Under the pieces are notes generated by a model. It did not search any database, had not been told where the DNA came from, and worked only from the letters and a program-made list of their open reading frames with translations. 64,000 bases of DNA from Thiomicrorhabdus indica (GTDB taxonomy: Bacteria; Pseudomonadota; Gammaproteobacteria; Thiomicrospirales; Thiomicrospiraceae), in assembly GCF_004293625.1 (NCBI RefSeq), contig NZ_CP033040.1, positions 496,001-560,000 on the forward strand, read 5' to 3'. The translations under genes and the position numbers were made by a program. Shown here piece by piece: positions 9,988 to 11,659 of the stretch; position 1 is the stretch's first letter; every line of letters begins with the position of its first letter.

Positions 9988-10245
9988 ATGGCTCACAAAA
10001 AAGCAGCAGGTAGTACTAAAAACGGTCGCGATTCTAATGCCAAACGATTGGGTGTGAAAGCATTCGGTGGTCAAGCGGTTTCTGCGGGAAGCATCATTGT
10101 TCGTCAACGTGGTACTAAGTTCCACGCGGGTGATAACGTTGGTCGTGGTAAAGATGATACTCTTTTTGCAAAAGCAGACGGTCAAGTTGCTTTCGTATCA
10201 AAAGGTAAGCCTGTACGTACTTTCGTAACAGTTGTTGCTGAATAA
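9988..10245 (+). CDS. rpmA: Ribosomal protein L27
   Basis: The 85-residue protein is a standard L27: [19 protein letters not shown] at the N-terminus, which reaches the peptidyl-transferase centre, then [20 protein letters not shown]. There is no N-terminal cleavage extension of the kind seen in Firmicutes. AAAGGA precedes the start. A terminator follows 25 bases after the stop, so the ribosomal pair can be a transcription unit separate from obgE. Confidence 0.98.
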
Positions 10246-10270: not shown

Positions 10271-10308
10271 AAAAGCGCCCTACCGATATTTTCGGTGGGG
10301 CGTTTTTG
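10271..10308 (+). terminator. Rho-independent terminator after rpmA
   Basis: An 11-bp stem (GCGCCCTACCGA with TCGGTGGGGCG, one G-T pair) with a short ATTT-type loop and a following T-run. Confidence 0.88.
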
Positions 10309-10331
10309 TTTGTGGAAGATGATTGGTGTTT

Positions 10332-10452
10332 TCAAGCTTTGCTAGCGATGAATATTCCAAAAAGTTTCACAGGGCAAGGATGTCCTGTGAGAGTCCTCAG
10401 AGATGAGCTCGAAACGTCTTTTTGAAATATTCATCGGTAGCGAAGTTTTACG
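10332..10452. repeat. Large imperfect inverted repeat between rpmA and obgE
   Basis: Two arms of about 30 bases face each other. The left arm, from 10332, reads GCTAGCGATGAATATTCC then AAAAAG. The right arm (about 10412-10450), read on the other strand, gives GCTACCGATGAATATTTC then AAAAAG. Between them is an inner hairpin, TCACAGG (10369-10375) with CCTGTGA (10384-10390). No ORF is present. The shape suggests a small mobile or structured intergenic element; a cis-acting RNA leader of obgE is the alternative. Confidence 0.7.
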
Positions 10453-10501
10453 CCTTTTGAAACACAATTTTCTAACATTTCTCGTGGCATGCCTCTGGTA
10501 A

Positions 10502-11659
<1,158 letters not shown>

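Follow-up and report, generated by a model that had tools for sequence, protein, structure and literature searches.

The window analysed here is a 64,000-nt stretch of the Thiomicrorhabdus indica genome (contig NZ_CP033040.1, positions 496,001 to 560,000), and its subject is a structured inverted-repeat element at window positions 10332-10452, between rpmA and obgE. The element is probably a diverged member of a structured repeat family that is dispersed in this genome, and it is inserted past the rpmA terminator and ahead of the likely obgE promoter. The repeat class has been met under three names: YPAL (synonym RU-2), a Yersinia mini-insertion sequence; TwoAYGGAY, a predicted CsrA-sponge RNA; and Ysr224, a much-annotated bacterial small RNA (sRNA) that matches the opposite strand. 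YPAL, TwoAYGGAY and antisense Ysr224 appear to form one repeat class, and the window element is a diverged member and variant of it.

The window element and its family

The element is about 115 nt long. An inverted-repeat search finds two outer arms of 31 nt each, which face one another across 53 nt and are 87% complementary (left arm 10334-10364, right arm 10418-10448; all features given here lie on the forward strand); both arms are also seen in the fold. Inside them, hairpin 1 (10367-10390) pairs TCACAGGGCA (10367-10376) with TGTCCTGTGA (10381-10390) over 10 bp at 90% complementarity; its loop, AGGA, lies inside CAAGGATG (10375-10382). The original prediction, made on the same DNA, had described facing arms of about 30 bases and an inner TCACAGG/CCTGTGA hairpin, and both are confirmed. 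It had overlooked hairpin 2, CTCA-GAGA-TGAG (10396-10407, stem 10396-10399/10404-10407), which is visible on folding, and it had overlooked membership of a family. Hairpin 1 is homologous to columns 20-43 of the family alignment A3, and hairpin 2 occupies columns 51-62, where most other members have GGA in the loop.

The RNA fold of 10300-10480 has an energy of -65.6 kcal/mol, against -40.4 +- 4.0 for shuffled sequences (z = -6.4; none of 200 shuffles as low). Five repeats reached the threshold in the 464 kb of genome sampled (the window and 20 stretches of 20 kb), and the window element is the strongest long inverted repeat among them. The arm pattern GCTAGCGATGAATATTYC, at three mismatches or fewer, occurs twice in the window, once in each arm, with 0.07 occurrences expected. 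The left arm is specific to this locus, BLAST recovering no further full copy of it from this genome; its inner end, CAAAAAG, is family-like.

Primary sequence searches do not reveal the family. BLASTN of the window element recovered neither a second genomic copy nor, in relatives, anything beyond short matches. A match at 862307 (E 0.004) was rejected as a second copy because it lies inside a 269-aa frame, presumably yaaA. R1, a covariance model built from the window element alone, found 11 further places in the same genome (E 1.2e-9 to 0.02). In the 31 other genomes of the genus, the best R1 match had an E value of only 0.45. A second model, R2, was built from 12 copies of the own genome. 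It gives 20 matches there at E <= 0.01, of which 16 are strong (E <= 1e-5; 12 are the training rows) and four weak. R2 has no match in the 31 other genomes of the genus or in five of the same taxonomic family, and a single match (G044) in 21 more distant genomes.

Across 369 evenly drawn gammaproteobacterial genomes, the family is present at E <= 1e-3 in at least 39, the own genome included, and in at least 35 of 271 genera, often with several copies per genome. At most 12 candidates were scored per genome and filters were stricter, so copy numbers are minimum values and weak members escape. The distribution is patchy, with one of 32 genus genomes and 39 of the 369 occupied, the latter again a lower bound. 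Among 80 named obgE loci, R2 matches two (L095 and L103).

The third model, R3, gives a more independent test of the assignment of the window element. Its training set is 59 matches from other genomes and contains no sequence of the own genome. It matches the window element at 10349-10432 with 66.9 bits (E 1.5e-14) and recovers 15 of the 16 strong own copies, missing L207; over 510 kb it gives no further match under E 0.04. Its training rows were picked and aligned by R2, which is based on the own genome; the selection is therefore common to both models, the sequence is not. BLAST of the window element and of members L213 and L233 against phages, plasmids and E. coli gave no match, but most of the family is beyond the reach of BLAST.

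The family core, about 50 nt long, stands on an outer stem and folds into two hairpins, whose loops usually both contain GGA. In the own genome its approximate consensus is AAAAGC-KTC-(hairpin, loop ANGGANG)-GAGC-(hairpin, loop ANGGAYG)-TTTACAGCGTCTTTT, and cores there are mostly less than 60% identical (91 of 120 pairs). Alignment A3 holds 75 cells with changes on both sides of a pair, against 24.6 +- 4.1 when shuffled and at most 23 when slid. Alignment A5, which was fitted to the structure, holds 670, against 193 +- 14 and at most 153. Properties of copies were counted in a set of 108, made of the model matches plus 26 copies of genome G108 and minus eight (L192, L208-L211, L230, L237 and the second match in L221). 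Copies fetched by BLAST from the genus of G283 (L241-L270) and the loci L095 and L103 are outside this set; 42 of the 108 come from two genomes, and the copies are not independent. GGA is present in both halves of 100 of the 108 cores.

Likeness to named repeats and RNAs

The 168-nt RU-2/YPAL sequence (PMC2759123, Table 1b) holds the family core in the form AAAGCGTC-hairpin-CGAGC-hairpin-TTTACGGCGTCTTT. Its alignment beats all 100 shuffles for 96 of the 108 cores, and for 10 of the 16 in the own genome. YPAL/RU-2 and the family are alike in being palindromic, intergenic and present in many copies. Differences stand beside this likeness: the window copy has only CAAGGATG in common with RU-2 in the alignment and is about 115 nt rather than 168 nt long, and the copies of the own genome, unlike those of YPAL/RU-2, have no arms in common.

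TwoAYGGAY (RF01731) is linked to the family by member L222, which passes the model cut-off (44 bits against 43) with both loops aligned; the best match in the own genome reaches 23.8 of the 43 bits. Both have two hairpins with GGA-type loops, and the outer stem of TwoAYGGAY is described as poorly conserved (PMC4333381). TwoAYGGAY was reported as a probable RNA that is probably not cis-regulatory (Weinberg 2010, PMC2864571), and it is predicted to sequester CsrA (PMC4333381). The passages on it in these two accounts do not mention a repeat.

The Ysr224 model (RF02770) matches five of 20 scanned member loci, each on the strand opposite to the element and below the cut-off (best 51.3 of 70 bits); in member L233 it aligns antisense to the core. 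It has no match in 15 loci of the own genome. Ysr224 is listed among the most abundant annotated bacterial sRNAs (PMC9029176). Since it is the strand antisense to the repeat core that the model recognises, counts of Ysr224 genes may be counts of a repeat.

The GTAG- and CGTC-tagged repetitive extragenic palindromes (REPs) are also palindromic repeats that follow genes, and family cores end in CGTC. REPs differ in being 20-40 bp long; CGTC REPs have stems of 8-9 bp and are mostly alphaproteobacterial (PMC3733652). A full-text literature search found no paper that links YPAL, TwoAYGGAY and Ysr224, the sole pairing being that of YPAL with its own synonym, and the matches listed for the core strings were all unrelated papers.

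Several observations weigh against placing the window element in this class, or against its being mobile. It is the least YPAL-like of the 108 cores, with a score of 8 where shuffles reach 10. Stems in the own genome are less regular than elsewhere, the median ungapped complementarity at 12-28 nt from the core being 0.56, against 0.85 in G108. It is unmatched by RF01731 at E <= 10 and by RF02770. Its full loops are AAGGAT and AGAGAT (many other members have ATGGAT), so that AYGGAY is not found in both; with AGGA in loop 1 and GAGA in loop 2, GGA is not found in both either. The window copy is thus too diverged for RF01731, RF02770 and YPAL, and it is tied to the family by R1, by R3 and by intermediate copies in the own genome. 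YPAL makes target duplications of 3-26 bp (PMC2229807); among the 108 copies, target-site duplications of 6 nt or more occur in four, against 4.6 in the control, though arm ends were estimated and short or displaced duplications could escape. With no such signal, the case for mobility comes from distribution.

Origin of the outer stem

The outer stem differs from copy to copy. Arms are 28-31 nt long in 44 of the 108 copies and 23-31 nt in 70, within a range of 12 to 60, the longest length scored. In G108, which has at least 26 copies (further ones found by BLAST), 30 pairs of copies have cores at least 95% identical. Their outer arms, compared at 12-28 nt from the core, have a mean identity of 0.42, against 0.37 between genomes, and three of the 30 exceed the 95th percentile. 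Within copies of G108 the median arm complementarity is 0.85, a few copies being poorly paired. Pairs from G351 and G284 show the same pattern: cores 92-94% identical, arms 0.32-0.41 identical, and 100% complementarity within each copy. Near-identical cores on private arms that pair with themselves raise a testable question on how such an element spreads and why its stem is kept up.

Two groups of copies depart from this. Outer-arm identity in the own genome is 0.38, against 0.37 expected, so the fixed terminal repeats of a miniature inverted-repeat transposable element (MITE) are not seen there; with diverged cores, unrelated arms and irregular stems, all copies look old. The genus of G283 has a 161-bp form with common arms, mostly starting with TATACC and ending with GGTAT, at 43-49 or more matches in each of six genomes (L219, L241-L270); terminal repeats of the MITE type are largely shared here. 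At L219 the 161-bp form sits within another palindromic repeat (CCTAAAAAGAGC.../...GCTCTTTTTAGG).

There is a real possibility that the private stem is a dyad which was already present at the target, and that the core inserts into the centre of a palindrome such as the stem-loops found after genes. YPAL targets are reported to span or adjoin dyad symmetry (PMC2229807), and own copies lie near gene 3' ends. Arms in G108 often end in AGC...GCT plus T, and the flanks there are enriched in T to the right (0.33, compared with 0.25 farther out) and in A to the left (0.36, compared with 0.25). An excess of T-runs is absent, however, over the 108 copies (0.27 against 0.29) and in the own genome (0.28 against 0.33). 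Stems of mostly 23-31 bp, with no old loop left, are also longer than usual terminators, and at the site occupied in G252 the alignable stretches of the relatives G412 and G414 are only 7-11 nt apart, with no long dyad. Elsewhere this site holds an unrelated strong hairpin (G418) or 47 and 93 nt (G413 and G410). A slightly more doubtful explanation is that insertion itself creates the stem, the flanking DNA being copied in a fold-back that leaves an arm of host sequence facing an inverted copy of it. The G108 pairs, with their dissimilar arms and high complementarity within each copy, speak for it. So do the 26 left arms of G108, which have few matches past their own loci (one subfamily, one direct repeat and weak ones). 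Weaker pointers are the left arm of L204, which overlaps the final codons and the stop of the gene before it, and that of L343, which coincides with one copy of a 56-nt direct repeat (two copies) and meets the core at CAAAAACCGT, a string found at the start of other cores as well. Against copying of this kind stands Halomonas locus L103, a degenerate copy near proB, where eight aligned sister loci lack the whole insert, both arms included. A same-strand gene end falls inside the left arm in only one of the 108 copies, and the repeat at L343, being intergenic and with a broken second element inside it, can be read in other ways. Outside G108 and the own genome, arms are similar in 14 of the 16 pairs whose cores are at least 95% identical.

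It is unlikely that the copies are instead an old, vertically inherited family, whose arms drift with pairing kept and whose near-identical cores result from gene conversion. The diverged cores of the own genome would fit this, as would the aligned proB-rpsT copies of Thalassolituus and Oleispira (L095, L083, L134, L132; R2 matched L095 only of the four), in whose diverged arms changes are paired and G.U pairs occur. Such a history would require conversion tracts of about 70 nt that stop repeatedly at the arms, and it sits poorly with the patchy distribution. The broader proposal is speculative: a small mobile RNA or DNA core that makes its own stem by inverted copying of about 15-30 nt of flanking host DNA, with YPAL, TwoAYGGAY and Ysr224 as three views of one class found in about one in ten gammaproteobacteria. 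If the stem does arise by copying, each new copy would stand on a private near-perfect stem of similar length. On the main reading, that of a dispersed repeat, the core would reach new sites either as a DNA copy or by way of an RNA.

The direct repeat of G108 lies at L343:389-624, after a gene which we take to be ispA-like; a truncated element is found between the two 56-nt repeats and a full element at the second. A coding origin of the L343 left arm was considered and rejected, as the frame ends at 392.

Position at gene ends and predicted function

The window element is preceded by rpmA (85 aa, 9988-10245; an open reading frame (ORF) named by sequence recognition and so called in the original prediction) and by the rpmA terminator, at about 10271-10307, which is separate from it. 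The copy starts 88 nt after rpmA and about 27 bases past the terminator; the original prediction had placed a separate terminator 25 bases upstream. A terminator of this type (GCCCCGC..GGGGCGTTTT) is present in the gaps of 27 of 27 relatives (27 of 30 rpmA-obgE loci, the own locus, L061 and L069 being excluded). Downstream, TAAAAT at 10499-10504 is taken as the -10 of the obgE promoter, and the string occurs in 24 of the 27 gaps. It is followed by obgE (368 aa, 10553-11659), identified as an ORF and by homology; ObgE is 80% identical to that of the best named species, records very near the window possibly being left out. A consensus scan reported no rpmA terminator, probably because A/T tracts were counted as stem. 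It also found no full obgE promoter, and no promoter or terminator belonging to the window copy itself.

In none of 29 relatives does R3 match the obgE locus at E <= 5. An element that lies between a kept terminator and a likely promoter and is absent from these loci is an addition of this lineage. Of the two roles first suggested for it, mobile element or obgE leader, mobility is favoured by distribution, with no movement seen, and the leader does not survive. The element is 5' of obgE, as a leader or riboswitch would be; it also lies upstream of the likely -10 and has no family match in any of the 29 loci, and a leader is scarcely credible. The original prediction would have taken occupation of this site in all relatives, with compensating changes, as a sign of a leader RNA and not of mobility. 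The family has no match at this site in the relatives; compensating changes are abundant across the family, and occur also at the orthologous proB-rpsT copy in Thalassolituus and Oleispira. The element near obgE is probably unrelated to any obgE leader. Other long hairpins, without R3 match, are found in the rpmA-obgE gap of three relatives (G028, G019 and G012; loci L065, L071 and L062). They suggest that this gap often takes up insertions.

Gene ends are the usual surroundings of the repeat in the own genome. Every one of the 16 strong copies is flanked by a gene 3' end, on one side or on both, and in 14 of them within about 40 nt; L191 is farther off. Thirteen follow a same-strand stop and none lies between two starts; at the window copy the gene-context script skipped the short rpmA. 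Orientation is mixed in 27 copies of other genomes, 12 being antisense to both neighbours, six sense to both and three between two starts. These tallies were made on plain ORFs, and 33 of the 108 copies lie inside some ORF of at least 70 aa, many of which are probably spurious.

The arms carry an RNA-like signal. Read in the sense of the core, the arms of the 108 copies contain 168 G.T and 46 A.C pairs, which were scored alike (p ~1e-17 if pairs are independent). The excess is seen where neighbours run in the direction of the element (38 to 12) and where they are opposed (25 to 6); it is weak in the own genome alone (14 to 8). A palindrome acting only as DNA should give equal numbers, so an excess in the core's sense, whatever the direction of the neighbours, points to RNA. 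Strand-biased mutation is an alternative source of the excess.

A large bidirectional transcription terminator would account for the strong hairpin, the location at gene 3' ends and the T/A-rich flanks in G108. This is very unlikely: rpmA already has a conserved terminator, the core is conserved, and the G.T excess is independent of neighbour direction. Over all copies there is no excess of T-runs past the arms, in the own genome neither; G108 alone has some. A simple terminator is rejected on this count, and the first description of the element as too large for a terminator was a fair one. A stand-alone sRNA gene that sequesters CsrA, and is not a repeat, is improbable. CsrB has GGA motifs in hairpin loops, as has the family, and CsrB/RsmB (RF00018) is in the same Rfam clan (CL00106) as RF01731, for which CsrA sequestration is the predicted role (PMC4333381). 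The family differs from CsrB/RsmB in having two hairpins only and dispersed copies, and L196 gives a partial match of 14 bits against a cut-off of 71. Copy numbers also argue against a single gene, with 16 strong copies in the own genome, at least 26 in G108 and at least 43-49 matches per genome in the genus of G283; the window copy, as said, shows no promoter or terminator of its own.

For the dispersed repeat itself, the function is perhaps CsrA/RsmA binding, a prediction made from the motifs. Read-through at gene ends would express the core as an RNA hairpin, and an RNA-binding protein could then recognise the GGA loops; to judge from the motif resemblance, a protein of the CsrA/RsmA type is the most plausible candidate. 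Three points tell against such a role. The window copy lies between a terminator and a promoter, where its transcription may be doubtful. The many copies antisense to both neighbours are unsuited to a simple role in 3' untranslated regions. No csrA was found in the 464 kb of genome or in the fetched loci, a search that did not extend to the whole genome and had no positive control.

Further repeats were noticed during the analysis. Another imperfect hairpin of 35 bp is present in the own genome (L173, G000:1039911-1040000; fold z -3.5), within L160, which has no family match. Palindromes of the form ACCGGCCGGT recur in the own genome (L162:5647-5716, L160:14228-14278, L155 near 11040 and L173 near 355), some of them with extended arms. 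In G108, a second, unrelated repeat of about 80-115 nt (L273:339-457) lies just upstream of an element copy; it is dispersed and partly clustered (contigs C2 and C15).
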